This document shows positions 625 through 25,342 of a DNA stretch of 27,117 bases, piece after piece (position 1 is the stretch's first letter; each line of letters starts with the position of its first letter). This stretch comes from a virus. The notes under the pieces are model-generated. The model did not search any database, was not told where the DNA came from, and saw nothing but the letters and a program-made list of their open reading frames with translations. Location: IMG/VR virus record IMGVR_UViG_3300043420_001661, positions 1-27,117 of that record. One strand, written 5' to 3'. The position numbers were made by a program, and so were the translations under genes.

Positions 625-805
625 TTCTCGCTATTTCTCTAAGGAGCTGTTTAATCTCAGATAGTTCTTTCTTCAATATATTTATGTCATTCCTCATAAC
701 ATTAAACTCAGATGTTAATCTTTTTGTTGGACGATCTTTACTTATAATCGCCCCTGTATTAACATCTCTAACTAAATTAGGGTGTCCCTCAACTGGAATA
801 TGCAT
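602..805 (-). CDS. Small coiled-coil virion-associated protein (67 aa)
   Basis: This is a 67-residue protein with two parts. The N-terminal segment (VEGHPNLVRDVNTGAII, residues 5-21) resembles a motif I recall from small T4-like phage proteins that carry a VEGH/KGH..L.RD...GAI signature. The C-terminal half (about residues 33-60) is a heptad-like helix rich in L, I, K and E, probably a coiled coil. Its start codon overlaps the stop of the 2684-aa gene (TGATG) and its end overlaps the start of the beta-helix gene, so all three are probably co-translated. It may be a small adaptor or chaperone for the neighbouring fibre proteins. That is inference from position only. Confidence 0.75.
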   Translation of the reverse strand: MHIPVEGHPNLVRDVNTGAIISKDRPTKRLTSEFNVMRNDINILKKELSEIKQLLREIARNGINTNL

Positions 806-3800
806 CAGTAAGAAGCAACTGCACGAATGTCTTGAATTTTTGGAACATATGCTGGATCATCTGTCTTCATAACAAGTTCAATTGCAAATGATGTAAATTC
901 AGGGAGATCAGCAACACTGTACTTAAATTCTTGATATGATGATTGCTTTTCAACAATAGCCGAAATTGAATTTTCTGCTGTTGCTAAATCATCATTATCT
1001 GGAGATCCATCTGTGTTAAAATATTTCCAATTGATATCTTCAAAATTAGATTGTAAAGATGCTTCCTTAATTCTATAAAGAACTTTTACATTTTCTCTAT
1101 CTTTGACATTAGCTGTAATTCTAACATCAATCGATGTACCAGGACTGTTAATAGCAACTTCCTTAGAAACATACTTTGCCAATGATGAAGTATTTTTCGC
1201 ACTTGTTTCTGGAGTAAAGTCAACCCCAGTACTAAATTCCATTGAAGAAATTTCTACATATTTACCATCTCCAGTTTTAACAATATCACCAACTCTAAAG
1301 ATATCTTGAGATTGATTTGTTGATTGTCTTACAAAAACACTTCCCTTAGTAATTGGGCTAGTGTAGTTATTGGAAATTGGTAAATAACTATTTTCAACAA
1401 TCAACTCTTTATCTTTAGAATCCCATGAAATAATCTTTCCATTGATAGTATTAGCATAATTAGTATTTACATTTTCTGGATAATATGCAATGAGATCTGC
1501 ATTTTCTGAGAAGTTAAACAATTGTTCAGTTACTGTAGATACACTTAGATTTACGTTTGTTATACGAACTCCTGCCGAAGTGCTAGCAATCAACTGCTCA
1601 TTAGTTTCAAATATAACAGACGTATTTAAAATTACCAAAGCAATATTATCTGCATAATTTAATATAGTACCAGTTGCTTTACTTGCTTCTCCCGTTAATA
1701 TTGTTCCAGTTACTATTTGATTAGACGAGCCAACAACAACTAAACCTATATTATACAAAGGAGAGAACTTTAGTTTTTGGTATCTCTTTCCAAATCTATC
1801 TTCATAACCAGTAGAATTTTCTACTCTATTAGTTGACATCTTAACAGAACAAGTATTTAAATCAATTACTGGTGATAAGTAAGAGACGGAAGATGATAAA
1901 TTAACTTTATATGTTAAGGATTTATCAATAGAATTTAATGTCTCATTAATTCTTGATGCGACAATTTTTTGATTAGAGAAGAAGTGCTCTTGGTTTAAGA
2001 ATGTTTTTTCATAATCTGTTTGTGTATATGAAGGGAAATTAATTGATGTAGAATCTACTGGTGTAATATTAGTGGTTTTTACAAATGTATCAATAGTAGT
2101 TCCTTCTAACTGCAAGTAAGAAATTTGAGCATAAAGTTTTTCGTACTTTCTATTATAGGAAGCAAGAACTTTTTTACCTCCACCAACAACACTAGATCCA
2201 GCTCTGTTTGGTGAAATAATATTATAAGAGTCAATACCAGAATTTGTAACTTCAAATAGTAAAGCATTTAAAGATGCTGAAGAAATACCTCCAACAGTTT
2301 CTGCATTTTTAAAGAATACATAAGATTTCCCAGCTCCCTCAAAACCATGGTCTCGGTGATTTACCTTAACAATAGAGTTATTATTTTTGAATAAATTTGA
2401 TGTTGCATTAGTGCCAGATCTTACACTAGTTTCAAATGGATTTGCATCTAGTAACTCGTAACCTAAATTATTGTTGGTAAGTAGAAGTTCCGCTGGTCTT
2501 GTGATATCAAATTCTGCTCTATAAAGAGTAAATTTAATATCCTCAAATAAATCTTCTGTCCAGTTATCGGTGTTCTGTGACTTGTAAACAGAACCAAGTA
2601 GAGGTTGTGAATTTACAGTAGTGCTAGTAGCGATTTCAGTTTCACCTAATCTAGACGCCCAAATCTCATAATTAATAGAATCAGTTTCAATTGTTAATGC
2701 ATACTCAGAATCGTTCTGAAGATATACTGGATGCTTGAAATTAAATCTTGTTGGGACAACTGATTTAGTATCACTAAATTGATCTGTAGCAATACCCATT
2801 CGTACTGCTGGAGTATCTATTTCAATTACAGATTCAATTACAGCTTCGCCTGCACCACTACCAATACCTTTAATAACTACTGAAGGCGCTTCTGTATAAC
2901 CACGACCACTTAGAGAAATTTCTGCATTATAGATTTTAAAATCAGAAACACTAACAGTACCAGTTGCTGTACTTCCACCTGGAAGTTGAGGACTTTCAAT
3001 TACAATAGTAGCACTCTCATAATTATCTCCTACGTTAGTAACTTTGAGATCAATAACCTTACCAGAATCTTTAGCAATCGTTAAAACTGCATTCTTATTA
3101 CGTGTGTTATTGAACTCTGTAACGGAAGGAATCTCTAAAGGCTCATTCTGTAAGAATGAAGTTCCGTTATTGTTACTTAGGACTAATGTATAAACTTGTT
3201 CCTTGTTCAATTGGAATTGAACGGAATTTTCATCCCCAACTAAAATATTATTTTTATCGTATACTTTTAAAATAGGACCAGTGGCATTTGAATTTTTTCC
3301 TTTGACAAATTCATTTTTTCTGATTGAAATAGTATCGGAATCTCCAGTTAAATAAACTCTCAAATATGTTTCTGGATATAGCACTGATTCTGAACCAGGA
3401 ATAACATATTTTCCAGGTTTTCCAGTATCAATATTAGTTAGATATACTCTAATAGGTACTGAAGAATCTTTCTTGTTGAAGAATAAATCAACTCCAGTTG
3501 TGAACATACCACCAGCAAAATTCTCAATCTTGAATGTTTGTGCCAAAGGATTTGGCTTTGATTCTTGATCTGTATTGCTGTTTACAAGTTGTACTCCTTC
3601 GTTTGCTTTGAAGTATGCAACAGAAGTTGAGATTATTGATGGAGGATTCTCTGGAATGATACCAGTAGAATAGAATTTAATTTCTGCATAAGTATCTGAA
3701 TTTAATTTTTCCGAATATTCTGGAGTAGATGCAAATGTAATCGTCTTTTCGCCAGCCGTAAATCTAATCTCTTCCGAACCTTCGTCATACGAAACTGTAT

Positions 3801-6800
3801 TTACATCTCCAGTCCACTTTGAGTTTTCAATTGGTGGATAACCTGCTGGGAATAAAATTACTCCACTTAAGTTACCATTTGAATCAGTTACTAATGGAGA
3901 ATTGAAGGTAGATAGAGAGTTGCCTGCAACACCAGTGAAAATAGTATCAGGCACAGCCCATCTGTTGACATTTCTGCCGTCAACGTAAACATTAATATTA
4001 GTATTTGCTTTTAATCTTTGTACCTTAAACTTGATAGGAATAGATCTAGCAAAGAATTGTAAGGAAGATGCAATATTATTATTATTTACAGTTTTTGAGT
4101 TTATTCCTTTACCAATTTCATTATTTTGAGGATTGACATTGGAAGAACTTGCAATAGATGCTTGTTGAACTGATGCACTAATACTTTCACTTGCCACAGA
4201 AGCAAATGAATTGATATTTAAAAATGAAGCATTTGTTCCTACCCAGTTAACTATAAACGAATTGCAGATGCTTGAAAGAGATTCTTTTACATCATCTTTT
4301 GCTTGGAAAATAGTAAAGTGGCTTGTATTATTATTTACAGCTAATGGAGCAACAGTAGTGTCATACCACTGATCAATTACTGGAGTAATATCACAATCAC
4401 CGACATATTGAACTACTACAAATGGATTTGGATTGATAGTTCTGGTAGCATACTCATTGCCCAATATCTTAATAGATTTAAAAGGTAGAGTAACAATATT
4501 GTTTGATTTTTTGTATCCAGCAATAGCACGTTGATCATCTCTAGTGTTGATCTCTACTAGATTAAAACTATTCTCTCTTGTTTGTGGTCTTAAAACTGAT
4601 TGCTGAGTATCAATTGAGCATCTGTAATCTGGTGATTTGAGATTACCGATTCCGTGTGATTCAAAGTTATCTACAATAAAACCACTCTTAAATCTGTCTA
4701 AACCAATTTCATCTTTAATCTGCATATTAAGAGCTTGCTGCTCCAGAATGCTGAGAGTTGTATAATACTCTAAACGCTCAATACGCTTTTCAAGTTTTCC
4801 GATATCCCTCATTGTATATCTGCGATTATCAACAGGGATAATTCTTACATCCTTACTATCTACAGTAAATGAAGGAATGTGAATGTAACAAATTGCAATA
4901 GCATCATCGACATTATCTGGTTTAGAAGGATTCATTGAAGAATTACCTTGCTTAACAATAAATTCTCCTTTTTTATTCAAGAAAATACCATCAATACGAT
5001 CAAGATATTGGGTCTCGCTAAATGATATTGTATATTCTAAATTAACATCGGATGCTGGGGTTGCTGATATAACACCCCCATCATCAATGAAGTTTACATA
5101 ACTCTTTCCTTCTGGGTTTGCCAAAATAGAAACATCTTGGAAACCAGTAATTGTAGTATTAGAATCTACTTTTGGTCTGAAATCAATAACATCTTTTAAT
5201 GAAACAATTCCATGAAGAGCTGAGTTAAACGATGGGATCTCTCCAGCTGGTACTCCTGCCTCATGTAGATATGAATCTACCGTACAAAAATCTCCTTGAG
5301 AATGCTCAAAGTAATCAAATGCAATTACAAGTTGACCAACAGGAGCATCAAATCCTGGTTTTAGAACAATTCTAGAAACATCATATAAGGTATCTCTTTG
5401 ACCATCATCAAAAGTAAACTTATATGTAATATCTGTGCCACTAATTAGCTGACCACTAGCGTCAACATTTGGCGGAGTAGTAGAAGTACCTTCGTATACA
5501 TATCTTAGTTTATATGCGTCGGAGTAAGAATAAACCTGAATTGTCTCTTCGTCATAATCGTTACCTCTCAGTGGAATTACTCTATCTCCACTGGAAGAAA
5601 CAACAATTCTTTTATTTTTGATCGCAGTTTTTAATCTAGGCTTTCCTTTATCAATTTCCACAGTCGCAGTTAGTTTTAATTTTGGATAGTTAATTAAACC
5701 AGTCCCAAAATAACTATCGGGTAAATTAATTACAGCAGATCCAGTAGTAATACCAGTAGAATCTGATGTTGGATTATTTAAAGTAACAAACTCGGGTGCA
5801 ATATAAATTATATCGCCAGATTCAACAAGAGTAGAATCACCGCTATCCAAAACAGTTAGAACGAAAGAATTCTCCGAATAAGTAACAAATCTTTGGAAAC
5901 CATTTCCTAATTGTGCAGTAAATGTTAAAGTTCCTCCACTTGAAGATAGATCTGTTGTAAAATCTTTACGGATATAATATTTAATTTTTGTATCAGATGT
6001 ATCTTTAACTAGTGACGCTACTTGCTTGCTTCCTGTTGGATAAATTAATGATGAAGTAACATTTTGGATATTTGGTCTAATTCTAACAACACTGGTGTTT
6101 ACAATATCTTGAGGTAGTGAGTAATCTAGATAAATTCTGGATTTGTATACACCTTGTGCATCTGATGTATATTGTACGATATTTTTTACAACCTGATTAG
6201 TTACATCAGTAAATTGTACAATATCTCCTTGAATTAAATCTTTTGCTAGATTTGCTCCAAATCCATTGCACTCAATAAAACGATCACCCTGCTTACCTGA
6301 GAAAGTAAAGTTTGTTATTTGCTTATAAGCAGAGTATTCTGTCTTATTAAAATCAATATCTGCAGTAAATTTGTAATTATTATAATCAGAATGTACTGAC
6401 TTTACATTTTGTGGATTATATGTAAGTACAGAATTTTTGAATAATACTGGTATAATAACTGCATAATTTGATGGTGAATCTGGCTGTGGTGATGCAGTTA
6501 CAACTGGAGGAGCAGCATACTCTTTTCTTAAAGCATTTCTATCTTTAATATTAATTTTATAGATAGATCCTCCAATTAATTCTGGAGTAACTTTACTTGA
6601 ATTTATTTCATCGCCGTCAATAATTAGCTTAGATTCGGTGGTGTACCCATTACCACGCTTTGTCACTATAAAGTGCGAAATAGTATTATCTTTAGCAATT
6701 TTTAAACTATTTCCATCTTCGTCTGAAATAGTTTCCCCTGAAATAAATTCACCAGAAAGTACGCTAACAAATAGTACGTTACCGCTGCTATAATTTTCTG

Positions 6801-8859
6801 TAGTATCTGATTCGATCACTCCATATGCATTACTTGTTTTTCCAACAATATACTTACCAATACCAAATCCAATTGCAGGAGATTCTTCTAACGTAATTTT
6901 AGTAAAGAAGATAGGATTAAAATAAGAGAAATTAAATATTCCACTATATGGTCTATTGTTAATACCACTTCTTCCTCTTGACACAACAATATCAGTGTCT
7001 TCATTAAATCCTAATGCTCTATCAGAAAGAGTAAAATTCTTTGGTTTTGTAATTCCAATTACAGGAGTAATTGTAGTGTTATAATCAACAATTGTACCAT
7101 AATAAGTGGATGAGCCATCTAAAGCATCTGCTTCAGTTTCAAAGAGTAATCTTATCTTACCTGCTCCACCATCATCATACTCTAAGAAATACGTATCTAA
7201 AATAGATTTATCACCTTTAATCGTAAACTCTACGAAGAACTGTCCAGTTGCTGTCGAAACATCATTTCTCTTACATATGGAACTTGATATTACATCAACA
7301 TAATCTACAGAAGATGGTTCTCCTCCGCTTCTAGTTTTGATATACCACAACTTATCGGGATATTCATCTCTAGAATTTGGTAAAACATTTGCTACTTGAA
7401 CATAGATTGTTTTTAAGCCATCTGCTAAAGTAAATGATTGTGCTCTTCTTGATTTTGTCAGTTTAAAATAAGAATCATCTTCTTGACCATTTAATCCAAT
7501 AGAACCATCGTTAAATACACAATTTAAATAAACATTGGGGTAGGCAGTTAAATCGCCAGCAACATTGTTGAGAGGAACACTTCCGTAAACATTTGAAATT
7601 TTAAAACTAGAAGAGCCTTTAGATTTAATAGTTACATTATCTCTAGTTAAGGTATCTCTTGCCTTATCGACTTCAAGATACTTAGTTTCTTTATTTACTA
7701 TTTCAAAACCACGAACATATGCTTTTCCTGGTCCAATATTAGCAACCATTTTTCTGGATGCTTCTACTTCACTAATGCCATTTACTAAACCAGATTCTGA
7801 CAGTTTATATAATCCATTATTATTGTTATTTTGATAATACTCTCTAACATCAACTGAAAAATCTTTTACTACATAATCGCCAGATTCATCAAAAGTCCTT
7901 CTGGCTAGAGTTTCTTCAAGTAAGGTATAATCAGCAGGTTTTACTTGTTTTTCTACGACACCATTTTTAATTTGAATCAACTGAATAAAATTTTTGTCAG
8001 TTAATTCATTATAAGTGTATTTCTTTAAATCAAGTGAAATTTTTAATCTATGTGATCCAGGAGCAGAATAGTTTGAAAAACCTCTTGCGTTATCATAAAG
8101 AGATGGATTTTCTTCTGGAGTAACAATACTCTCTACAATATTAAAACCAATTTTTGCTGATGGTTTATCATAATATTTGTTTACTACTAATAACTGCTGC
8201 TCGTTTCTTACAAAATAACCATTTACAAAATAAATTCCTTCTTCTACTTTTAACGCAGTAGCATAACCCATTGCTGGGCTAGTTAGTGATTTAGTTTCTT
8301 CAGTGTCGGGATCAAAAATTGAAATAGTAGTTGGTAAAACGCTACCATCAGTACCAACAACTAATAAGGGAGTATTAATGCCACCAACAACTTCTAGAGT
8401 TTCTCCTTGTCTAAATGTAGATTCATTACCTGCATCGCCACTGTTTACATAATTTACAAAAATTGTATCTGCTTCTTCTGTAGTTGCATATTCAGTTTCA
8501 ATAACAACTCCAGTTACTCCAGAATTAATACCACGCAGAGTAGAACCGATTAAGTTCTTAATATCATATTTTTTATATACAATAGATCCATTTTCATTTA
8601 CAGCCACTTCTGAGACAGAAGACAATTTGACATAATCTAATTTTGTATTAAGACCAATTTCTCCAGGAATTACTAGTTGACCTTGCTTAAATTGGAACTT
8701 AGCATAGTTCTCAATTTGATTTTGTAGGATCGACTGTAGAGAAGTTAATTCTCTGGTTTGTACAGAATACCCAGGTCTAAAGAGAACTTTATAAAAATTC
8801 TTTTGTGGATCAAAGTCGTCAAAATATGGTGATACGTTAAGATTTGTCTTCTGTGGCAT
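805..8859 (-). CDS. Giant DUF4815-type virion structural protein (2684 aa)
   Basis: The N-terminus (residues 1-60: QKTNLNVSPYFDDFD, then FRPGYSVQTRELTSLQSIL) matches the DUF4815 family of T4-like phage virion proteins as I know it. Around residues 1340-1410 there is a charged helical segment (RDIGKLEKRIERLEYYTTLS) that should form a coiled coil, flanked by long beta-rich regions. At least three G-x-GY modules (for example TNVGDNYESATIVI and LSGRGYTEAPSVVI) and several GE-type modules occur in the remainder. The position downstream of gene 8, where T4 carries gp9 and gp10, suggests a peripheral baseplate or tail-fibre role and host contact. That role is inferred. It has its own GATAAATA late promoter and an AGAGAGATT ribosome-binding region about 11 bases before the ATG. 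There is no signal peptide or transmembrane segment. Confidence 0.87.
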   Translation of the reverse strand: MPQKTNLNVSPYFDDFDPQKNFYKVLFRPGYSVQTRELTSLQSILQNQIENYAKFQFKQGQLVIPGEIGLNTKLDYVKLSSVSEVAVNENGSIVYKKYDIKNLIGSTLRGINSGVTGVVIETEYATTEEADTIFVNYVNSGDAGNESTFRQGETLEVVGGINTPLLVVGTDGSVLPTTISIFDPDTEETKSLTSPAMGYATALKVEEGIYFVNGYFVRNEQQLLVVNKYYDKPSAKIGFNIVESIVTPEENPSLYDNARGFSNYSAPGSHRLKISLDLKKYTYNELTDKNFIQLIQIKNGVVEKQVKPADYTLLEETLARRTFDESGDYVVKDFSVDVREYYQNNNNNGLYKLSESGLVNGISEVEASRKMVANIGPGKAYVRGFEIVNKETKYLEVDKARDTLTRDNVTIKSKGSSSFKISNVYGSVPLNNVAGDLTAYPNVYLNCVFNDGSIGLNGQEDDSYFKLTKSRRAQSFTLADGLKTIYVQVANVLPNSRDEYPDKLWYIKTRSGGEPSSVDYVDVISSSICKRNDVSTATGQFFVEFTIKGDKSILDTYFLEYDDGGAGKIRLLFETEADALDGSSTYYGTIVDYNTTITPVIGITKPKNFTLSDRALGFNEDTDIVVSRGRSGINNRPYSGIFNFSYFNPIFFTKITLEESPAIGFGIGKYIVGKTSNAYGVIESDTTENYSSGNVLFVSVLSGEFISGETISDEDGNSLKIAKDNTISHFIVTKRGNGYTTESKLIIDGDEINSSKVTPELIGGSIYKINIKDRNALRKEYAAPPVVTASPQPDSPSNYAVIIPVLFKNSVLTYNPQNVKSVHSDYNNYKFTADIDFNKTEYSAYKQITNFTFSGKQGDRFIECNGFGANLAKDLIQGDIVQFTDVTNQVVKNIVQYTSDAQGVYKSRIYLDYSLPQDIVNTSVVRIRPNIQNVTSSLIYPTGSKQVASLVKDTSDTKIKYYIRKDFTTDLSSSGGTLTFTAQLGNGFQRFVTYSENSFVLTVLDSGDSTLVESGDIIYIAPEFVTLNNPTSDSTGITTGSAVINLPDSYFGTGLINYPKLKLTATVEIDKGKPRLKTAIKNKRIVVSSSGDRVIPLRGNDYDEETIQVYSYSDAYKLRYVYEGTSTTPPNVDASGQLISGTDITYKFTFDDGQRDTLYDVSRIVLKPGFDAPVGQLVIAFDYFEHSQGDFCTVDSYLHEAGVPAGEIPSFNSALHGIVSLKDVIDFRPKVDSNTTITGFQDVSILANPEGKSYVNFIDDGGVISATPASDVNLEYTISFSETQYLDRIDGIFLNKKGEFIVKQGNSSMNPSKPDNVDDAIAICYIHIPSFTVDSKDVRIIPVDNRRYTMRDIGKLEKRIERLEYYTTLSILEQQALNMQIKDEIGLDRFKSGFIVDNFESHGIGNLKSPDYRCSIDTQQSVLRPQTRENSFNLVEINTRDDQRAIAGYKKSNNIVTLPFKSIKILGNEYATRTINPNPFVVVQYVGDCDITPVIDQWYDTTVAPLAVNNNTSHFTIFQAKDDVKESLSSICNSFIVNWVGTNASFLNINSFASVASESISASVQQASIASSSNVNPQNNEIGKGINSKTVNNNNIASSLQFFARSIPIKFKVQRLKANTNINVYVDGRNVNRWAVPDTIFTGVAGNSLSTFNSPLVTDSNGNLSGVILFPAGYPPIENSKWTGDVNTVSYDEGSEEIRFTAGEKTITFASTPEYSEKLNSDTYAEIKFYSTGIIPENPPSIISTSVAYFKANEGVQLVNSNTDQESKPNPLAQTFKIENFAGGMFTTGVDLFFNKKDSSVPIRVYLTNIDTGKPGKYVIPGSESVLYPETYLRVYLTGDSDTISIRKNEFVKGKNSNATGPILKVYDKNNILVGDENSVQFQLNKEQVYTLVLSNNNGTSFLQNEPLEIPSVTEFNNTRNKNAVLTIAKDSGKVIDLKVTNVGDNYESATIVIESPQLPGGSTATGTVSVSDFKIYNAEISLSGRGYTEAPSVVIKGIGSGAGEAVIESVIEIDTPAVRMGIATDQFSDTKSVVPTRFNFKHPVYLQNDSEYALTIETDSINYEIWASRLGETEIATSTTVNSQPLLGSVYKSQNTDNWTEDLFEDIKFTLYRAEFDITRPAELLLTNNNLGYELLDANPFETSVRSGTNATSNLFKNNNSIVKVNHRDHGFEGAGKSYVFFKNAETVGGISSASLNALLFEVTNSGIDSYNIISPNRAGSSVVGGGKKVLASYNRKYEKLYAQISYLQLEGTTIDTFVKTTNITPVDSTSINFPSYTQTDYEKTFLNQEHFFSNQKIVASRINETLNSIDKSLTYKVNLSSSVSYLSPVIDLNTCSVKMSTNRVENSTGYEDRFGKRYQKLKFSPLYNIGLVVVGSSNQIVTGTILTGEASKATGTILNYADNIALVILNTSVIFETNEQLIASTSAGVRITNVNLSVSTVTEQLFNFSENADLIAYYPENVNTNYANTINGKIISWDSKDKELIVENSYLPISNNYTSPITKGSVFVRQSTNQSQDIFRVGDIVKTGDGKYVEISSMEFSTGVDFTPETSAKNTSSLAKYVSKEVAINSPGTSIDVRITANVKDRENVKVLYRIKEASLQSNFEDINWKYFNTDGSPDNDDLATAENSISAIVEKQSSYQEFKYSVADLPEFTSFAIELVMKTDDPAYVPKIQDIRAVASY

Positions 8860-10845: not shown

Positions 10846-13800
10846 CTAGAATGATCTTAAATAATCATTTGAAGTGTGAGAAGCTGGTACAGTATTATCT
10901 GCTCCTCTTATTAATCCTAATAGAGTATTTCCACTCTTGGAAGTATATTCAATCACTTCTTTATTAATAATAATTCTTCCATTATCAGGAAATCCTGATG
11001 CATTATCAATAACCATAGTGGTACTTGTATCTGAAATATTTGATGTCAGCATAGAACCAATTTCATTTATTGATGGTACAGCCAAATTAAAGAATTCTCC
11101 TGTTAATGTAATAGCAGAATATCTTCTTTGTTCAAAATCATTTATAGTAAGATTTGGATATGCATAAGTAATAGCCTGTATAGAACCAGAAACTTTAAAT
11201 ACACCAGTATCTATAAAGCGATTATTTTCAAATGCTGTTATAGTATATCCAGCATTCCCTAAATTATAACCTTCAAAGAACTCATCTCTTCCAACATTTT
11301 TGTTAGTAACTTCAATTGTAGAACCATCTCTAGATATAATGGTATTAATTGGTTCCGATAAAGTAAAGAATCCTTGATTTCTAGTTTTGATTGGATTTTC
11401 CAATACAAAAAGTTCAGTGAAGAAATCTAAGATACCAATGTTGAAATCTATTTCTCTTATCGAAGATCCTCTAATACCAGTCGAAGTGTCTATTTGTACT
11501 GTAGTTTGCGAAGAGTTTGGATTTACTTTAGATGAAATTTGATTTGAAGATGATATGTAAGTACAGTTAATAACTGGATCTATATTAAGCTTTAATGGTG
11601 TTTGGTTATATATAGCTGTATTTGTTACTGAAGTTACTGAAGATTGGATAGTGCTATTAACTAATGTTACTGATGTAGAATGAGCAGAGTGGCTAGTATT
11701 AATACCGTAAGTAACTACATCAATGACTTCAAGTTGAGTTGAAATAACTTTTGACGTTTGAGAAGTGATATAACTATGCTCATACCCTGCATTAATATGA
11801 GTAGAAACTACAGTATTTCTTGTATCAAGAATATTGATATTCAGATTGTTAGTTAATTCTATATTAGCTTCTATTGGAGAAACAATTAATGATTCCGCAA
11901 CAGTTGTTATTGCAGGAACCTGTGCGTATAAGATTCTTGTTACAGAATGTGAATTTCTTACTTCCAAATATGATACAGGAGGAATAACCAATATTTCATT
12001 GATAATATTTTCAATAGTATTGATTGAAGAAACAATACTTTCTATTGTTGACTCATTTCTTAAAATATAATTGGAAGAATAATTTTCTATTGTAACTGCA
12101 GAAACTACATTAATATCATTTTCTACAACAATTGCATTATAAGAAGATGTTACTACAGATGAGAATACTGATTCATATGAAGATTCTGTTGCAGAAACAA
12201 TCTGAGTAGAAGACAATATCTCGGAAACATCAACATTAATTTGCTGTTCAGCAAAAACTTGAATATTTGTTTCTTTTACAGCTGTAATTGTTGAGGTTAT
12301 TGAATCTAGTTTAGATGCCTCAACAACATTTTGTACTTGTGATGATGTAGAATGTACTACTGTTATTACATTATATACAGGTGTCTGAATAATACCGATC
12401 CAAGGGAGAACTTCAAAATCACTATTATCAATTTCAATTTGCTGATTTGCACTTAAAACTGTCGAATCGTGAGTTATTGATGATTCTTTTGGTTCTGCAC
12501 TAAAAGTTTTTACTACTTCAATTAAAACATCTTTAATAGATTCTATTGAGGTAATAGATTGAATAGTCGATGTTCCAACAGGTACAACACTTACAATTTT
12601 AGGTAGATGTCTTAGATAATCACCTGCTTCGTGTGTTTGTGCGGTAGTGCCATCTGCTCCTCTAGTAACATCTAAGAAACGATCCTGTTTCTTTCTTTCG
12701 TAGTAGACAATTTCTCTACCAACTAGCAATCTACTTGAATCTGGGAATCTTAGTGTATTTGGTATGAAAATAATAGTATCAGTTTCTGATAATGGAGCAT
12801 CTAGGAATGCACCAATATCATTAATCGAAGCAGTATCAAGTTGAACAAATGCTTCATTGATTTGCTTACTAATTGTGGATGTTATTTCTCTATCAGTTGA
12901 AATAATAGCAGTAGAGGAAATAATATCTGCTCTTGCATCAATAGTGCTTACAACTTCAAGTTCTATTGACTGGATTTCATAATCAATCTCAATTGGTGGT
13001 AAGTTTACAACAAATTCATTCTGAGCTAATCTTTCGGCAAAAGTAACCACTTGTAATGGTGGTATAATGATATAGGTAATTTGCTTCGCTGCTTCTTTAA
13101 ATGCACCCTCAGCTGCTAAATCAATTAACGAGAATATCGATAATCCAGTAGGACCACTAGCAAATAATGTAATTACACTACTTGCTACTAAACTATCAGA
13201 AAATGCTACTGGAGGAGAGATATTTAATACTGTTGTAACATCAAATTTTCTTGATTTATTTTTAATTCTGTTATATCCTCTAGATATAACAACCTTAGGT
13301 GGTTGATCATACCCATATCCATTTTCTACAAGTACAATATCAACAACATTGCCGCCAATACAGATTGCTTCTGCTCTTGCACCACCACCATTTTGTGATA
13401 AAGGAATAAAATCTATTACTGGAACAGTGTAGTATTGATATGCAGTTGGCTGCAATAATACTTTATTATTAAAATAGAGCATTAAATCTCTTTTGTTCCA
13501 ATTTAGTTTAGTTACTCTACCACTAGAATCAATCTCAGCTGTAATACTTAACCCCTCGCCTCTAGTTATATCATTATAATTTGAAGTTTGTACTCTAGAG
13601 TAAATATCTCCTGGTAAAAACTGTCCTGTATTATATTGTTTTGTGTTTACTAATTCAGGAATTGATATAATTTCTCTATAATCCGATTCTCCATCAATCT
13701 GGATTAAATCTCCAATATTTAAGTTAGCATATAATTTGCTTCTTTCTTCATAAGCATTACGTCCTAATTTAGTACCAAACAACCAAGATGGAACATCCAC

Positions 13801-16800
13801 CTGAAGTTTTCTAATACCATCTTCATCTTCGAAATATGTAATTGAAGATTCAAATACTTGCGTTAATGTAAAACTATCATTATTAATAGGATTTACGAAA
13901 GTAAAATCTGAATTGTCTATTATTTCATATGAAGATGATAGTAAAGTTAAATTAATATTTGATGTTTTTGGTTTAACTGACTTTACTTTTCCTAGAGTAG
14001 TTCCATTTTGAGAAACTATTACATTATCAGAAAAATAATCAGCAATCCATGTGAAAAATTCTTGCTGATTTGAAGCTCCATCAATAATTAAATTTGATTT
14101 TGTGTAGTAAGCATTTGGCTCAAAATCATAGAATGTTAACGTTTTTAATTTATCAATTCCATAGAATAATAAAATAGAAACTTTCTGTAGGGTTTGTTTT
14201 CCAGATTCATCTTCATGATATTTTAATGGAGATGTAAATGTAATATTTGGTCCTACAATTTGATAAGATTTTCCTGGTATTTGTAAAACACCATCTATAA
14301 ACACAACTGCATATAGAGGATCGTCAATTTTTACAACAGATTTCTGTACTTCATTTAAAATTAAGAATGGACCTTTACCTCTATATTTTACAGTTCTAGA
14401 ATCAATTGTTAATCTTTTATAAGAACCAACGCTATAGATAAAGCACTTTTCCCTAATAACAATATCATCAGTGCTATCATATAATTCTCCATGACTAATA
14501 GGAGGTTCTGTAAATGCAATTTTATCTGTAACATCAGGATCTACAGATCTTATAATAGCATATGAATTACCAAATGGTTCTTCTTCTGTTGTTTTTGCAT
14601 TTTGTAAAACACCATTTAATGCTACAATAAACTTCTCATTTGGCAAAGATTTAACTATAGATCCATCTTCTTCATATAAATCAAATATTCTTTGCTCTCC
14701 ATCAAATTGATCAGCAATATTTCTTAGCTTCCTTATGTATTGAGAATTTAATTCTTCTGTTTTAAATAAGATAGCTCTGCAGTAAAAATTTTGTGCAGCT
14801 ACTTCTTGACCTTCAGCAATGCGCTTTCCAAATGGTGGCTGGGCAAATGTAATTTTATTACCTTTGACTGTAAATGATTTACCTGGCTCTTGTAAAACAC
14901 CATCCAAAGAAATAATCAATGAATTTTCGCTGTATGGAGAAAAAGCAGTTCCAGCTTTCTTATCAATCAAAGTAAATGTTTGTGTTCCATATAATACTCC
15001 ACTATTTGGATCAAAGTCACCATCAAATGGAGCAGAAAGAATTAGCTCTTTAGCAATTGTTTCTGACGAGTCAAATGTGTCTATAGAAACAGATCCAATA
15101 CCTCTTTCTATATTACTATTAGCTACAGATAAAATATTTTCCGTCAGATATTTTACTGTGTTTATAATAGAGATATTTTGTGGCTTTAGGTTGATAAAAG
15201 AGTGTGTTTCTATTTCTTTTACATTCTGAGGCATTGCAGTGGTGCCTTCAGATTCAACTATTAATTCACCAAACAGTTGGAATCCTGCTGGATGAGTTGT
15301 TTCTTTAATTAAATCTCTCCAAAAATCAATAGGAGTTCTGGATTTAATTACATAAGAATAATCTTGATAGAAATAAGAATCAGATAATTTTTGAGAATTT
15401 GAGCTTAATTTACCTTTCTCAGAATTAAATCTCCCTAAATTATCAAAATATGTTTTAATATCAACTGAAAAAGAAGTTTCTAATTGTGCTACAATAGTAG
15501 CAGTTTTTGATCTAGCAAATCCTTTTATAGGAAGATCATTCCTAAAAATACCATTAATATTTTCTACTTTTAGTAAATTACTTCCTACCCTCCAACCATT
15601 TTTAGAAACAATAGCATTAGCAACTAATATTCCATTTTCGTATTGAGCTATTTTTTCTCCGCCGTAGAAAGAATCATCTTCAAAATCTTTTAATACAAAA
15701 GTATTGGTAGATTTGAATGAAGGTAAAGTAGAATAATCAGAATTATAGCCAAAACCATTACTGATTAATTTAATATTTTTAGGAATCCCAATATTATTAG
15801 ATGTGAAGAAAACTTTTACATCTGATTCAAATATTCTTATTTCTGGATCATATGTAAATCCCTGTCCTGGATTTAAAATATTAACTGCTTTAATTCTACC
15901 ATTTTCTGAGATACATTCTAACTTATAATCAAAGCCATCACCATTTGTTATTAATGCTACTGGCTTACTGTAATTTTGTCCTTGATTATTGACAATTATT
16001 GAAGACAAATAACCAGTAGTAGTATCTATTGATGCAGTAACTAATGCTTCGTGTATAGAAGTTGGTAAAATACCTCTGCATAAAGGAATTAAATCATAAT
16101 CACTGCCAGTATCTACAATAGACAATGCTTTAATTGAACCTATTGCAAACTGGGATGTTGTATCATATTTGATTGTTCCTGTGCCATCATATTGAGGCAA
16201 ACTATTCATTGAATAAACAAATTTATTTTCAGTTGAATAAATTACAAAATTTTCTCCTGATAGTGGATCATCTATTACTTTTAATGATGATTCATCAGTA
16301 TCAACATCAGCTGAAGCTTTGATAAAATAGTAATAATTATTGAAATTTACAGGAATCTTTTGTTCATATTCATTTGATGAAATATTTGGTCCAAAACCAA
16401 GTTTAATAGAGACAAAAGATCCCACAGTTCCTGGTAAATTAGAACTTACATTCTTTTCTTCTGTAAATAAGTTATAATTTAAACTAGATGAGAAATCTAG
16501 ATAAGTATCAACCATTGAAAAATGGCTAGTATCAAAAGTGTATTTGTAATACTTTTGGATATTAATTACTGGGTTAATAATAAAATTAATTTCATCTTTA
16601 CTAAATTCTAGTTTATACTTTGGCTCTTCTACCGATTCAATCTTTACAAATTTACTTGCAATATTCTGATCGAAGAAAATACTGCTTTGCAATACCCGAA
16701 TTGGATTTGATACTCCATAATCATAAGCTAAGATAAGTTCTCTTGTATTTGAATTATATGAAATAACATATGGAGTATTTTGAGTCGTACCTAAAACACC

Positions 16801-19800
16801 AAAACCAGCATCAAATTTATAAGAAGTTTCGTAAAAATTAACTTCTTGACCATTAAAGTGGTCAACTGCTTTGGTATTTTTTTGTGCTCTTTCTACTGTT
16901 ATTAACTTAGCATCTTTATTTGTAGAGGTTACCTTAACTACTTCTTCACCAATCTGCAAGAAATCTCCATTAGAGATATCATTTATTGAAATTAAAGAAA
17001 TCTCTGTATTTTCTGCAGAAACTCCTACATGATCTACAATGATATTCAATCTACTTGTTGATATAGAAGATGACAATCTGTTTAAATCGTCGTCAGCTAC
17101 AGTTAAAATATCGGACTTTCTATATCCAAAACCTTTATTGGTTATTTCAACAAAAGAAACTCTACCATAACCACCACCAAGCTCAAAGACAGTTATTCTT
17201 GCTCTGGCATTTCCTGAGTCACCTGGCTTACCAATATTTTTTCTAGCCTTAGATGAATCAACAAATATTAACTCAATATCATTATATACACCTTCTCTAT
17301 AGTCAGAACCACTATTCAAAAATCCAAATCTACCAATACCAGTATCTACAATTTCGCCATTAAATTTTAAGTCTTGTAAAATACATTTTTGGTAAAGCCT
17401 CTTTCTTACATAATAAGTAGTTTCTGTTAAAGAATCATCTGGGAATATATCTACATTAATTTTATCACCTATTCCTAAATTATGAGTGCCATTTGTTTCT
17501 ACAATGGCAACTTTGTCATTGAGTGTGTTTATTTGTAGGTTTTCACTTAAAGAAGTTGATTTTATAATTTTGCTACTTGATGTATCTGAAAGAACATTAC
17601 TTTTAATAATAAAATCATCAGAAGCAAAGAATTCCCCAGAAATAACCCTTATTTTTAGTGAGTTCTGTCTTAAAGATCCTTCTAAAACAGTTGCTGTTCC
17701 AAAAATAACTCCATCATCTTCCCTAATAAATGATAGTGTAGATCCTTTACTGTAAGTTGCATTTTTGTCAAGTAAAATATTAAGTACTTTAATAGTAGCG
17801 AACAAAGGTAAATCAGTAGTGAATGTTCCATTTACATTTCTAACTACTAATCTATTATCATTAACAACATCACCTATAATCTCTCCTTGAGTTAAAGATG
17901 AAGTATCATCTAAAATAACTCTAAAAGAAGAAGCTGAAGCAACAGCCAAATCATTTACAACTTTGACATTTGGAGAATCTGAATCTTGTTGACCAGTAAT
18001 CTCTAAATTATCGACAATAATTTGATTCAATAATAATCCTTCTGATTGGAATACTGTATCTCCAGCAAACAAATATGCATTTTGCTTTAGATCAATCGCA
18101 ATTGCTTTATTTTGTACTGATTCTAAAGAAACAATCTCCTTTCCATTTACAGATGAAACAACAGATTTTGCGCCAAATCCTCCAGTATTATTACTATCAA
18201 TAAAAACTTGAGATCCAACAGAAAATGTTTCTGGTGAATAATCGGAATATCCACCAGAAACATTTCCTTTAGTAGTATCACCAATTAAAGCTAAAGAATT
18301 AGCTCCATTAGAATCTATTGCATCATCCCTATATCTAACAACATTTTTTGGGATATCATCTTGGGATATATTTGAATTATAGTTAGAATCTACTGGTAAG
18401 GAATAGAAATTTTTACCTATGATATATGGAAAGGTTGGATTTCCTAAACCATCGATACTAATAAAATAAGCATAAGTTCCATTTGGATATTCTGGAGTGA
18501 CACAAAATCTTCCGTTATTCTCGTCAAGTTTTGTTTTGTTGCTATTTACAGAAGGTATCCATTCATAGTCATCAACAAAAGTACCTAATGGATAATCTAC
18601 CAAAGAAGGACCGTTTTGGCGATTATTTTTTAGTTGATAACCACTACTCATTCTAACAACAGTAGAATTACTATTTCCTGGATCTGAAAATCCATATGGA
18701 CCATAAATTGGATTGCCATCATAAGCAAATCCTAATATTGGGGAATGGATTTTAACTCCTGTAGATTCGTCTAAAACACTATTGATGTTATCAGCAGATC
18801 TAAATCTAAGATTTGCTGGATTAGCTACTACTCCATAACCATCAGTAAATTTTGGATTAAAGTTAGAGAAAACATAAGAATTATTTGAATCTAGTAGTAA
18901 TTCATTCTTTTTAAATCTATCTTTAATCCATTCTCTAATTTTTGCTGAAGCAAATGCACCAGATCCTGCTGGAATAACTTCTACAATTAAACTATTTCTG
19001 CTGTAGAATCTACCACCGTTTATTTTTTGACACTTTGTAATTTGACCTTCTGGTGAAATAATTGCTTCATATTCAGCAAAAGCTCCTTTACCTAAAGCAT
19101 CGAAAATTCTAATCGTTGGTGCCGAAGAATAGTATTCACCTGGATCTTCTATTCGGATACTAGTAATTTCGCCATTAGTAACGACTGGTTTTAATTTAGC
19201 ATTTCTACCAGAAGTAATTGTTATAGTTGGATCTTCATTATAAACATCTTCAGAAAGTAACTCGATTCTGTCAACTACTTCACCTGCAAGAAAACATCTT
19301 GCTTTATTTGCTTCATTATTAATTAACACAAAAGGAGGATTTTTATAACCAACTCCTTTATTTTCAATAACAACTGATGTAATGTTGCCATATTTTACAC
19401 TATCAAAATCTTTATTGCTATAAGCTACAGAACCATCAATTAAAATACCAATATCTCTATTTGAAGTTGGGTAAATTTCTGTAGTATTAATTGGATATTT
19501 TCTAATCAGTTTTAAAAATTTCTGATCACCCAAATTCGATGGGGAATATTGATTTAAAATAGAATGATGCGGATAACCACTAGAACAAATGTAAAAATAC
19601 TGATCATCTTCATAAATTGCCGAAACATCAGAATTTAAATCCCCAATTGCATCAGAAATATTTTGATTAAGAGCCGAAAATGCTTTTCTGAAATTTGTGT
19701 TTAAAAACCAGTCAGCTCCATTGATAACTGGGTGGTTACTAATAAAACCAGATTTGGATATTTGTACCTTATCTCCAGAACTGGAATAAGGATTTGGATT

Positions 19801-20994
19801 TGATACGTTTAGATTGTATAATACACCAAGTGCAAGTAGAGTTACTGTTCCTCCATCATACTTGCATGTGATAACATTGTCACTGTAAACATCAGTTCCT
19901 GCAATGTGGGTAGTATTTGGATTTGATCTACCATTAATGATAAATTGATTTACATTTTTTTCGACAAAAGCAATGGTTTCTGAATTGACAATGATATTAC
20001 CTTTAGGCTCCAAACCTAAAGTGGAATAAACATCAATTCTATCTCCAATAGTATCTGTTACGGAAATATCTGTTTTTAGTTTGGTTTGTGCTGCAATACT
20101 AAAAGAGCCATTGACAGAGCCTGGTGATAAAACTAATTCAAAAATTCCGCCATCTCCACCATAATTAACCGCATCGACTATGGCAGATGCATATGATGTT
20201 GAAGTTTTTTGTATTAATTTGTTTCCAACTAATTTTTTAATATCACCAGTCAGTACCTTTGCTTTAATTGAATAATTACTTATCCAATCAGAAGTGGAGG
20301 CTTTTATGGTAAAATCTTTTGGATTATATGTCTCTGGGGTATCTTCAGCACTCTTTGAAACAATAGAGTTGAAAATAAACTTTATAGATCTATCAGTACC
20401 CTTTGCTTTGTAGAAGTCACTGATATTTTTAATCAGTACACGCTTATCTACATCTCCTTTTAAATATGCTTCGGGGAAACCACCTAGATACTGTGATTCA
20501 AAGCTTTTTACAAAAGCATACAAAAATAGATTACTAACATTATATACAGTATCATTTACATAATGTGGCTCTGCTTGAGTAGTAACAAACTTAGAACTCT
20601 CATATAAATCTCCTAGAGTTGTGTTGCCACTAACACCCCTAGAAACTTCTAAAAATTCTGTATCTGTTCTTTCTTTATAAAAACAAATTTCATTTCCAAT
20701 TTTAATATATCCATTTTGTTCTGGAAATGAAGTAGCATCCTCAACTACGATTGTAGTGTCGGTTTCGGTAATGCTTGATGATAATTCAGTAAATTGATTG
20801 AGTAAGTTTTTCTCGTAGTAATTAATGTCACAATACTTTGTAACATTAGAAATAATGTCAAGTGGTTGTCCTTGACTTTCTAATTGCTCGTAGTATTTCT
20901 CTACAAACTTGGAGAAGTTTTCGTATTCAGAAACTATAAACCCAGGTAGTTGAGATTCAATTAAGCTAGAGATATTTCTTGTCTTTGCAGCCAT
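10846..20994 (-). CDS. gp7: Giant gp7-like baseplate wedge initiator (3382 aa)
   Basis: Its position between genes 6 and 8, and the N-terminus (SSLIESQLPGFIVSEYENF, then KYYEQLESQGQPLDII), fit the gp7-like wedge protein of T4-type cyanophages, which organises gp6, gp8, gp10 and gp25 in the wedge. At 3382 aa it is over three times T4 gp7 (1032 aa) and takes up 37% of the window. Visible parts: a helical N-terminal domain (residues 1-220); a YHYH-like domain at about 755-865 (FAYDGNPIYGPYGF, then GTYAYFISIDG and FPYIIG); many G-x-GY beta modules; three LDGVLQ-type modules at about 2020-2260; a Ser/Thr/Ile/Val-rich stretch at about 2796-3170; and five scattered copies of an FP..G.I.I..E.I.Y...RG module, the last one ending the protein. 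Six bases separate it from gene 6. The gp7 name rests on context as much as on sequence. Confidence 0.85.
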   Translation of the reverse strand: MAAKTRNISSLIESQLPGFIVSEYENFSKFVEKYYEQLESQGQPLDIISNVTKYCDINYYEKNLLNQFTELSSSITETDTTIVVEDATSFPEQNGYIKIGNEICFYKERTDTEFLEVSRGVSGNTTLGDLYESSKFVTTQAEPHYVNDTVYNVSNLFLYAFVKSFESQYLGGFPEAYLKGDVDKRVLIKNISDFYKAKGTDRSIKFIFNSIVSKSAEDTPETYNPKDFTIKASTSDWISNYSIKAKVLTGDIKKLVGNKLIQKTSTSYASAIVDAVNYGGDGGIFELVLSPGSVNGSFSIAAQTKLKTDISVTDTIGDRIDVYSTLGLEPKGNIIVNSETIAFVEKNVNQFIINGRSNPNTTHIAGTDVYSDNVITCKYDGGTVTLLALGVLYNLNVSNPNPYSSSGDKVQISKSGFISNHPVINGADWFLNTNFRKAFSALNQNISDAIGDLNSDVSAIYEDDQYFYICSSGYPHHSILNQYSPSNLGDQKFLKLIRKYPINTTEIYPTSNRDIGILIDGSVAYSNKDFDSVKYGNITSVVIENKGVGYKNPPFVLINNEANKARCFLAGEVVDRIELLSEDVYNEDPTITITSGRNAKLKPVVTNGEITSIRIEDPGEYYSSAPTIRIFDALGKGAFAEYEAIISPEGQITKCQKINGGRFYSRNSLIVEVIPAGSGAFASAKIREWIKDRFKKNELLLDSNNSYVFSNFNPKFTDGYGVVANPANLRFRSADNINSVLDESTGVKIHSPILGFAYDGNPIYGPYGFSDPGNSNSTVVRMSSGYQLKNNRQNGPSLVDYPLGTFVDDYEWIPSVNSNKTKLDENNGRFCVTPEYPNGTYAYFISIDGLGNPTFPYIIGKNFYSLPVDSNYNSNISQDDIPKNVVRYRDDAIDSNGANSLALIGDTTKGNVSGGYSDYSPETFSVGSQVFIDSNNTGGFGAKSVVSSVNGKEIVSLESVQNKAIAIDLKQNAYLFAGDTVFQSEGLLLNQIIVDNLEITGQQDSDSPNVKVVNDLAVASASSFRVILDDTSSLTQGEIIGDVVNDNRLVVRNVNGTFTTDLPLFATIKVLNILLDKNATYSKGSTLSFIREDDGVIFGTATVLEGSLRQNSLKIRVISGEFFASDDFIIKSNVLSDTSSSKIIKSTSLSENLQINTLNDKVAIVETNGTHNLGIGDKINVDIFPDDSLTETTYYVRKRLYQKCILQDLKFNGEIVDTGIGRFGFLNSGSDYREGVYNDIELIFVDSSKARKNIGKPGDSGNARARITVFELGGGYGRVSFVEITNKGFGYRKSDILTVADDDLNRLSSSISTSRLNIIVDHVGVSAENTEISLISINDISNGDFLQIGEEVVKVTSTNKDAKLITVERAQKNTKAVDHFNGQEVNFYETSYKFDAGFGVLGTTQNTPYVISYNSNTRELILAYDYGVSNPIRVLQSSIFFDQNIASKFVKIESVEEPKYKLEFSKDEINFIINPVINIQKYYKYTFDTSHFSMVDTYLDFSSSLNYNLFTEEKNVSSNLPGTVGSFVSIKLGFGPNISSNEYEQKIPVNFNNYYYFIKASADVDTDESSLKVIDDPLSGENFVIYSTENKFVYSMNSLPQYDGTGTIKYDTTSQFAIGSIKALSIVDTGSDYDLIPLCRGILPTSIHEALVTASIDTTTGYLSSIIVNNQGQNYSKPVALITNGDGFDYKLECISENGRIKAVNILNPGQGFTYDPEIRIFESDVKVFFTSNNIGIPKNIKLISNGFGYNSDYSTLPSFKSTNTFVLKDFEDDSFYGGEKIAQYENGILVANAIVSKNGWRVGSNLLKVENINGIFRNDLPIKGFARSKTATIVAQLETSFSVDIKTYFDNLGRFNSEKGKLSSNSQKLSDSYFYQDYSYVIKSRTPIDFWRDLIKETTHPAGFQLFGELIVESEGTTAMPQNVKEIETHSFINLKPQNISIINTVKYLTENILSVANSNIERGIGSVSIDTFDSSETIAKELILSAPFDGDFDPNSGVLYGTQTFTLIDKKAGTAFSPYSENSLIISLDGVLQEPGKSFTVKGNKITFAQPPFGKRIAEGQEVAAQNFYCRAILFKTEELNSQYIRKLRNIADQFDGEQRIFDLYEEDGSIVKSLPNEKFIVALNGVLQNAKTTEEEPFGNSYAIIRSVDPDVTDKIAFTEPPISHGELYDSTDDIVIREKCFIYSVGSYKRLTIDSRTVKYRGKGPFLILNEVQKSVVKIDDPLYAVVFIDGVLQIPGKSYQIVGPNITFTSPLKYHEDESGKQTLQKVSILLFYGIDKLKTLTFYDFEPNAYYTKSNLIIDGASNQQEFFTWIADYFSDNVIVSQNGTTLGKVKSVKPKTSNINLTLLSSSYEIIDNSDFTFVNPINNDSFTLTQVFESSITYFEDEDGIRKLQVDVPSWLFGTKLGRNAYEERSKLYANLNIGDLIQIDGESDYREIISIPELVNTKQYNTGQFLPGDIYSRVQTSNYNDITRGEGLSITAEIDSSGRVTKLNWNKRDLMLYFNNKVLLQPTAYQYYTVPVIDFIPLSQNGGGARAEAICIGGNVVDIVLVENGYGYDQPPKVVISRGYNRIKNKSRKFDVTTVLNISPPVAFSDSLVASSVITLFASGPTGLSIFSLIDLAAEGAFKEAAKQITYIIIPPLQVVTFAERLAQNEFVVNLPPIEIDYEIQSIELEVVSTIDARADIISSTAIISTDREITSTISKQINEAFVQLDTASINDIGAFLDAPLSETDTIIFIPNTLRFPDSSRLLVGREIVYYERKKQDRFLDVTRGADGTTAQTHEAGDYLRHLPKIVSVVPVGTSTIQSITSIESIKDVLIEVVKTFSAEPKESSITHDSTVLSANQQIEIDNSDFEVLPWIGIIQTPVYNVITVVHSTSSQVQNVVEASKLDSITSTITAVKETNIQVFAEQQINVDVSEILSSTQIVSATESSYESVFSSVVTSSYNAIVVENDINVVSAVTIENYSSNYILRNESTIESIVSSINTIENIINEILVIPPVSYLEVRNSHSVTRILYAQVPAITTVAESLIVSPIEANIELTNNLNINILDTRNTVVSTHINAGYEHSYITSQTSKVISTQLEVIDVVTYGINTSHSAHSTSVTLVNSTIQSSVTSVTNTAIYNQTPLKLNIDPVINCTYISSSNQISSKVNPNSSQTTVQIDTSTGIRGSSIREIDFNIGILDFFTELFVLENPIKTRNQGFFTLSEPINTIISRDGSTIEVTNKNVGRDEFFEGYNLGNAGYTITAFENNRFIDTGVFKVSGSIQAITYAYPNLTINDFEQRRYSAITLTGEFFNLAVPSINEIGSMLTSNISDTSTTMVIDNASGFPDNGRIIINKEVIEYTSKSGNTLLGLIRGADNTVPASHTSNDYLRSF

Positions 20995-23473: not shown

Positions 23474-23503
23474 ATAAAAAAGCGACACCCGAAGGCATCG
23501 CTT
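23474..23503 (-). terminator. cUUCGg intrinsic terminator after the small basic genes
   Basis: The minus strand folds into a 10-bp stem: AAGCGA pairs with TCGCTT, followed by two G-U pairs and CC/GG. It is closed by a UUCG loop on a C-G pair, one of the most stable RNA tetraloops. A TTTTATT tract follows. It begins 5 bases after the stop of the 36-aa gene. Confidence 0.93.
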
Positions 23504-23507
23504 ATCT

Positions 23508-23618
23508 CTACTTCTTCTTCCTTTTGTTTGCTGCTGCCTTTTTCTTTTGACTTTGATGTTGCGTTGAACGCTTATCTATTTTACTTTTACCATCCTTATG
23601 AATCCATGGATTCTTCAT
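23508..23618 (-). CDS. Small, highly basic 36-aa protein
   Basis: This 36-codon frame starts at 23618 with ATG overlapping the stop of the 46-aa gene (ATGA), which implies translational coupling. It reads MKNPWIHKDGKSKIDKRS, followed by a Q/K/A-rich stretch and a KRKKK C-terminus. Over a third of its residues are Lys or Arg and it has almost no acidic residues, so it probably binds nucleic acid or ribosomal RNA. No family is recognised. It ends just before a cUUCGg terminator, so it is the last gene of a two-gene unit. Its size leaves some doubt, but promoter, coupling and terminator together support expression. Confidence 0.7.
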   Translation of the reverse strand: MKNPWIHKDGKSKIDKRSTQHQSQKKKAAANKRKKK

Positions 23619-23755
23619 CGACCTTGACCACGATAACGCTTACGAGCACCATTACGACTCGTAGCGGCATACTTCGTATGTGCTCCCATACCCTGACGGG
23701 TTTTCTTGGGTTTAGATTCGATTTGATTGCCAGTCAGCGAAGGACGCTTTGCCAT
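23615..23755 (-). CDS. Small basic protein MAKRPSLTG-type (46 aa)
   Basis: This 46-aa protein begins MAKRPSLTGNQIESKPKK and ends SRNGARKRYRGQGR. It is rich in Lys and Arg throughout, with Gly in the middle and end, and probably has little ordered structure by itself. I recall very similar short proteins in marine T4-like cyanophages, but no established function. It is the first gene after a consensus sigma70 promoter, with a 20-base leader and GAGAGG about 6 bases before the ATG, and it overlaps the 36-aa gene by four bases. The expression signals look like those of early, host-polymerase-read genes, whereas its neighbours are late virion genes. A nucleic-acid-binding or host-directed role is a guess from charge and promoter type. 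Confidence 0.85.
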   Translation of the reverse strand: MAKRPSLTGNQIESKPKKTRQGMGAHTKYAATSRNGARKRYRGQGR

Positions 23756-23781
23756 AAGACCTCTCGGTTGATTACCCACAT

Positions 23782-23810
23782 ATTATAGCACACCCCTCAC
23801 CCATTGTCAA
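23782..23810 (-). promoter_or_regulatory. Consensus sigma70 promoter with extended -10
   Basis: The minus strand has TTGACA (23810-23805), exactly 17 bases of spacer, and TATAAT (23787-23782). Both hexamers are perfect, and TGC before the -10 makes it an extended -10 as well. Transcription should start near 23775, about 20 bases before the 46-aa gene. The -35 overlaps the last codons of the PAAR gene. The host RNA polymerase could read it without phage factors. Confidence 0.92.
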
Positions 23811-25158: not shown

Positions 25159-25342
25159 TATTTGTTACTCTCTCCTTCTTTACCATATTATCATACATTG
25201 TCTCTACGCTCATCTCAGGTTGCCCACCTGTATAATAATCCATGGCGGCATCTTGGATGAGATCTGCAAATTCATTGAAATCATCAAATACTTGCTCTCT
25301 TAATGAACCATCCTTGGTTTTGTAAGTTACTCGTTGTTTCAT
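25130..25342 (-). CDS. Hypothetical 70-aa protein, first gene of the late cluster
   Basis: This 70-residue acidic protein begins MKQRVTYKTKDGSLREQVFD, looking like a short beta hairpin, and then has a helical acidic part (FNEFADLIQDAAMDYYTGG). I do not recognise it. It is the first gene downstream of the AT-rich non-coding region, about 71 bases after a predicted late transcription start, and it overlaps the next gene by 29 bases. No clear Shine-Dalgarno sequence precedes its ATG (AAAAAAGTCGCC). The uninterrupted overlap chain to the PAAR gene supports its being real. Confidence 0.75.
   Translation of the reverse strand: MKQRVTYKTKDGSLREQVFDDFNEFADLIQDAAMDYYTGGQPEMSVETMYDNMVKKERVTNNEPRPELLD

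Follow-up and report, generated by a model that had tools for sequence, protein, structure and literature searches.

In bacteriophage T4, a non-late gene lies directly before late gene 25 in the uvsY-gene 25 region. An RNA structure has been described between the Shine-Dalgarno sequence and the AUG of T4 gene 25 itself (PMC3014915), and in cyanophages gp25 borders a hot spot of variable small genes (PMC3037559). Cyanomyoviruses lack alt, modA, motA and asiA, and their early genes are thought to be read by unmodified host polymerase (PMC2984593). Here, we analysed a stretch of 27,117 nucleotides (the window; IMG/VR record IMGVR_UViG_3300043420_001661), a T4-like cyanophage contig in which a small unit stands between late virion genes, all on the minus strand (Table 1). 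An earlier note, made from the sequence alone, had described this unit as an early-type cassette, and all the features which it named were found where it had placed them: a sigma70 promoter with two perfect hexamers, a 17-base spacer and an extended -10, two very basic mini-genes overlapping at ATGA, and a UUCG terminator. Our analysis supports the view that a sigma70-type unit next to gene 25 is transcribed separately.

Table 1. Features of the locus in gene order on the minus strand, with positions in the window.
Feature	Position	Strand	Evidence
PAAR-motif protein gene	24129-23797	minus	Pfam PAAR_motif, E 1.3e-14; phrog_281, E 4.4e-20
Sigma70-type promoter	23810-23782	minus	12/12 match
Shine-Dalgarno GAGAGG of ORF A	23765-23760	minus	sequence; 4 nt ahead of ATG
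ORF A (46 aa)	23755-23615	minus	phrog_516, E 2.5e-23
ORF B (36 aa, lysine-rich)	23618-23508	minus	open frame; ATGA overlap with ORF A
Intrinsic terminator (10-bp stem, UUCG loop, T tract)	23503-23480	minus	sequence and fold
Structured RNA leader of the next gene, outside the unit	23446-23392	minus	covariance model
58-aa gene 3' of the leader, between the unit and gp25	23394-23218	minus	phrog_12480/phrog_1414 type, E about 9e-9
gp25 baseplate wedge gene	23195-22794	minus	Pfam GPW_gp25, E 1e-11
597-aa gene, position of gp6	22793-21000	minus	

The promoter is composed of a -35 TTGACA (23810-23805), which overlaps the coding 3' end of the PAAR gene, and, after 17 bp, a -10 TATAAT (23787-23782) extended by a TG ahead of it (TGC-TATAAT); transcription is predicted to start near 23775. 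Among 125 non-redundant loci (upstream 60 nt less than 75% identical), 48 have a sigma70-type site 26-36 nt ahead of the ORF A start codon; the same scoring gave 1.8% at random positions, and in a smaller first set of loci the site was found in 32 of 50. The element therefore has the two properties by which a sigma70-type promoter was recognised, hexamers 16-18 bp apart and a conserved distance from a gene. Among the 48 promoter-bearing loci, the TG extension occurs in 36 and a perfect -10 in 30, and between 2 and 6 positions of the -35 match. Five loci, the window, L009, L026, L048 and L129, have two perfect hexamers. These figures indicate that the extended -10 is the constant part, a perfect -35 being confined to the window phage and a small number of other loci. 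L005 and L006, the nearest relatives, have had the DNA just upstream of the -10 replaced; both keep the extended -10, the 5' leader, the ribosome site, ORF A and a UUCG terminator, and the GAGAGG of ORF A is identical in these two and in L010.

The presence of the promoter depends on the upstream neighbour, and its position and the synteny with gp25 are conserved. When ORF A follows a PAAR or other virion-type gene, the promoter is found in 38 of 47 loci, versus only 4 of 61 when it follows a glycosyltransferase or small-ORF gene (Fisher p = 4e-16, uncorrected for shared ancestry). A need to transcribe ORF A separately from the late virion genes would give such counts. Seven of the nine promoterless loci behind PAAR/virion-type genes, Syn9 included, have an intergenic distance of 19 nt or less, and in Syn9 and several others ORF A starts 2 nt behind the PAAR-type gene and its own promoter is absent. 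Since Syn9 carries ORF A without this promoter, the promoter is not obligatory and other transcripts can supply ORF A. Among the isolates, S-PM2 has the promoter. In loci with a small ORF or glycosyltransferase gene before ORF A, a promoter further upstream was seen in 8 of 58, not clearly above the background of 8.4%.

ORF A (calculated pI about 11.9, charge about +11) is a member of phrog_516 by a profile match over most of its length, residues 6-46 aligning to positions 8-48 of the 48-residue profile, and it is a homologue of S-PM2p076 (T4-GC394; 79% identity) and of Syn9 gp96. By tblastn it matches 443 cyanophage records, mostly annotated as hypothetical. The location of the family upstream of gp25/gp6 in T4-like cyanophages was observed in the window, in isolates and in genome contigs: in the annotated isolates inspected and in most genome-contig matches ORF A is found shortly upstream of gp25, separated from it by a few genes at most, and in most of these contigs gp25-like and gp6-like proteins are encoded downstream. 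Fifteen residues are invariant across 57 aligned members. ORF A is under purifying selection, with 3 synonymous and 0 non-synonymous differences from L005 and a ratio of 8:2 for L006, and it is an old and widespread cyanomyovirus gene, of a family without assigned function. Homologues beside gp25-like and gp6-like genes were also found in records labelled as Bacteroidota (L351, a 188-kb contig of Nonlabens xiamenensis 1Q3, and L348/L349, a Flavobacteriales MAG), which are either phages of other hosts or misbinned or co-assembled phage contigs. In HQ634189.1 (Syn30), the homologue at 8669-8812 has no annotation, and in KU686206.1 (S-CAM9) the sole feature annotated under the match at 49884-50027 is a ferredoxin; these gaps show that genes as small as ORF A get missed.

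Pfam returned no match for ORF A or ORF B, PDB sequence searches gave none for either, and in NCBIfam ORF A had only a sub-threshold match to StpA (E 0.06). A likeness of ORF A to ribosomal protein bL27 found no support in a profile search of PDB chains. ORF A is probably largely unfolded and nucleic-acid-binding; because its AlphaFold model is of low confidence (pLDDT 62; one basic helix, residues 28-42, which would be compatible with binding), the argument for binding comes from composition only. Host takeover, one of the two roles suggested in the earlier note, would be just one possible role of ORF A and is unsupported, the searches of Pfam, NCBIfam and PDB sequences having yielded no takeover-relevant match for ORF A or ORF B, and Syn9 and others having ORF A but no promoter dedicated to it.

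ORF B (calculated pI 11.0, charge about +11) behaves differently from ORF A. It had no match by tblastn and is absent from L005, L006, L010 and L094-L096; in the first three a terminator equivalent to that of the window follows directly after ORF A. Therefore, the two genes are not conserved together, and the idea of a conserved two-gene cassette is not supported. The search of relatives proposed in the note recovered promoter and ORF A together beside gene 25 in many of them, but not ORF B. Judged by this distribution, the conserved unit is promoter plus ORF A, and ORF B is an accessory gene. A basic, ATGA-coupled peptide of 36-44 aa follows ORF A in 7 of 189 distinct downstream regions, the window included. 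An HMM built from the six other peptides did not list the ORF B of the window at E 10, so that a common descent of the coupled peptides is possible and unproven. In other phages the slot is occupied by short ORFs, by larger unknown genes or by a ferredoxin-like gene. The last of these is coupled at ATGA to the homologue of ORF A in L142 and L243, which indicates that the slot can carry host-like metabolic genes. The terminator reads AAGCGATGCC-TTCG-GGTGTCGCTT followed by TTTTTTATTG, with a fold of -17.4 kcal/mol (z = -4.4), and a terminator within 130 nt after ORF A was present in 38 of 125 loci against a background of 1.8%.

The neighbouring genes had been said to use T4-type late elements, and this holds in part. 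On the minus strand, exact ATAAATA closely precedes gp25 (23215-23209) and also stands ahead of the operon that begins at 25342 (25425-25419) and of the genes that begin at 10791 and 8859. However, the motif is not enriched across the window, with 7 matches versus 18 expected, and the 58-aa gene is preceded only by a TAAATA-type element (23470-23465, minus). Downstream of the gp25 operon, the minus strand holds two very long open frames (10846-20994, 3382 aa, and 805-8859, 2684 aa), which probably encode tail or virion proteins.

Between the terminator and the 58-aa gene lies the RNA leader. Its hairpin 1 is AGGG-AUAGCAAC-CCCU, with an invariant loop AUAGNAAC; an A-rich linker, a hairpin 2 (CUGUU/AACAG) enclosing the Shine-Dalgarno GGAG and then the AUG follow. 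A covariance model made from six sequences matched the window leader with 44.5 bits (E 3.8e-8) and gave 80 matches, one per locus, among 99 loci, the window included, many of which had been retrieved by a pattern fixing hairpin 1 and the first three bases of hairpin 2. The 11 pairs hold in 94.8% of cells and six of them have changed on both sides; the covariation score was 0.247, whereas shuffles gave 0.090 and slid controls no more than 0.043, in an alignment which was fitted to the structure and is so biased towards it. A tally on raw sequences gave the same exchanges in hairpin 2, which the pattern left free after those three bases: CTGATTT/AAATCAG, CTGTT/AACAG and CTAATTC/GAATTAG. Since the folding energy of the single sequence is unexceptional (z -0.8), the evidence for the leader is the covariation. 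An H-type pseudoknot pairing loop AAC with tail GUU, both invariant, is possible. Four complete isolate genomes each had one convincing match to the model, and no convincing match was obtained in S-PM2, S-RIM32, Syn1, S-H9-2 and Sf-FP1, five of the nine isolates with ORF A. Rfam 15, at gathering and relaxed thresholds, showed no known RNA at the locus, and the leader copy of S-CREM1 is missing from the Rfam-based RNAs listed for S-CREM1.

We propose that the RNA polymerase of the host, carrying the main sigma factor, would read the extended -10 promoter either as soon as infection begins or during the early/middle phase, that the short transcript would encode ORF A and, in this phage, by translational coupling also the accessory ORF B, and that transcription would stop at the UUCG terminator, ahead of the late, gp55-driven gp25 operon. 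That this is a self-contained sigma70-type unit, from which host polymerase expresses ORF A early or in the middle phase amid late virion genes, seems to us rather probable. As ORF A usually keeps its own promoter behind virion genes, its expression probably does not depend on that of the surrounding late genes, and we infer that it is likely early or middle. Sigma70 promoters can also serve middle genes, and timing cannot be read from promoter strength in E. coli terms; in Ma-LMM01, genes of all three classes, early, middle and late, are preceded by sigma70-type sites (PMC5780444). What makes early timing plausible is that cyanomyoviruses are without the T4 polymerase modifiers and presumably use unmodified host polymerase early in infection (PMC2984593). 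With motA and asiA missing, middle promoters may be sigma70-like as well (PMC2984593), and the unit might thus belong to the middle genes, read by host sigma70 polymerase once the first minutes have passed and not as an immediate-early unit. Such a schedule would resemble that of the metabolic genes of P-HM2, which are expressed in the middle cluster (PMC5082946), and the ferredoxin-like gene in the ORF A-coupled slot of some relatives fits it; a consensus extended -10 promoter, however, works without an activator and should be active immediately, and we regard a purely middle unit as a tentative possibility.

The promoter is the sole 12/12 sigma70 site in the 7 kb scanned, and about 0.07 such sites are expected by chance (first-order model, whole 27-kb window, both strands), which makes a perfect promoter by chance alone unlikely, not impossible. 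In favour of a chance feature of the window sequence, the -35 falls within the last part of the PAAR coding sequence and neither L005 nor L006 retains it. Nevertheless, a sigma70-type site, mostly with extended -10, occupies the same place in many distant relatives, and this conserved position upstream of ORF A is a stronger argument than the chance expectation, so that an accidental promoter is highly improbable. ORF A could also be a virion component or a small factor for tail or baseplate assembly, whose place beside gp25 reflects its function and whose promoter secures a baseline supply. It precedes gp25, at most a few genes away, whatever gene lies upstream, and some phages such as Syn9 have it only within the PAAR-type transcript. 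Yet a late protein would not need a separate sigma70 promoter conserved behind virion genes, and searches of Pfam, NCBIfam and PDB sequences gave neither a structural motif nor a solved relative, which leaves us doubtful about a structural role. Even less probable appears an ORF A that binds the adjacent leader and thereby controls the gp25 operon. The protein is very basic and a strongly conserved, covarying leader lies immediately downstream, but the isolates with ORF A and no convincing leader show that the two are not obligate partners. On the wider reading that many cyanomyoviruses combine a host-polymerase unit, with its promoter mainly behind virion genes, and an undescribed cis-acting leader controlling translation of the gp25 operon, we consider the case evenly balanced.

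These results single out ORF A among the many uncharacterised small genes of cyanophages as one that is probably expressed outside the late programme despite its late cluster, and they indicate that inferring timing from nothing but gene position is misleading. If functional, the leader would be a new structured RNA of abundant aquatic phages, acting on a tail-assembly operon.

Compared with known systems, ORF A belongs by sequence to phrog_516/T4-GC394 (S-PM2p076, Syn9 gp96) and has the same place upstream of gp25; its promoter and the link with the upstream neighbour are unmentioned in the literature consulted on the family. The promoter resembles the early sigma70 promoters of T4 and of RB49 and S-PM2 in its host-type -35 and -10 with a 17-bp spacer and in the expected use of unmodified host polymerase, but those sit in an early gene block, whereas this one is isolated between virion genes. 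As in the uvsY-gene 25 region of T4, a gene outside late control would stand just upstream of the gene 25 unit, with an RNA structure near a translation start. In the window, however, this structure precedes the small gene before gp25 and not gp25 itself, and no sequence relation of ORF A to UvsY is apparent. Finally, the unit lies at the gp25 edge of the hot spot of variable small genes (PMC3037559), where variation is expected and is seen in ORF B and the upstream gene, while ORF A itself is constant.
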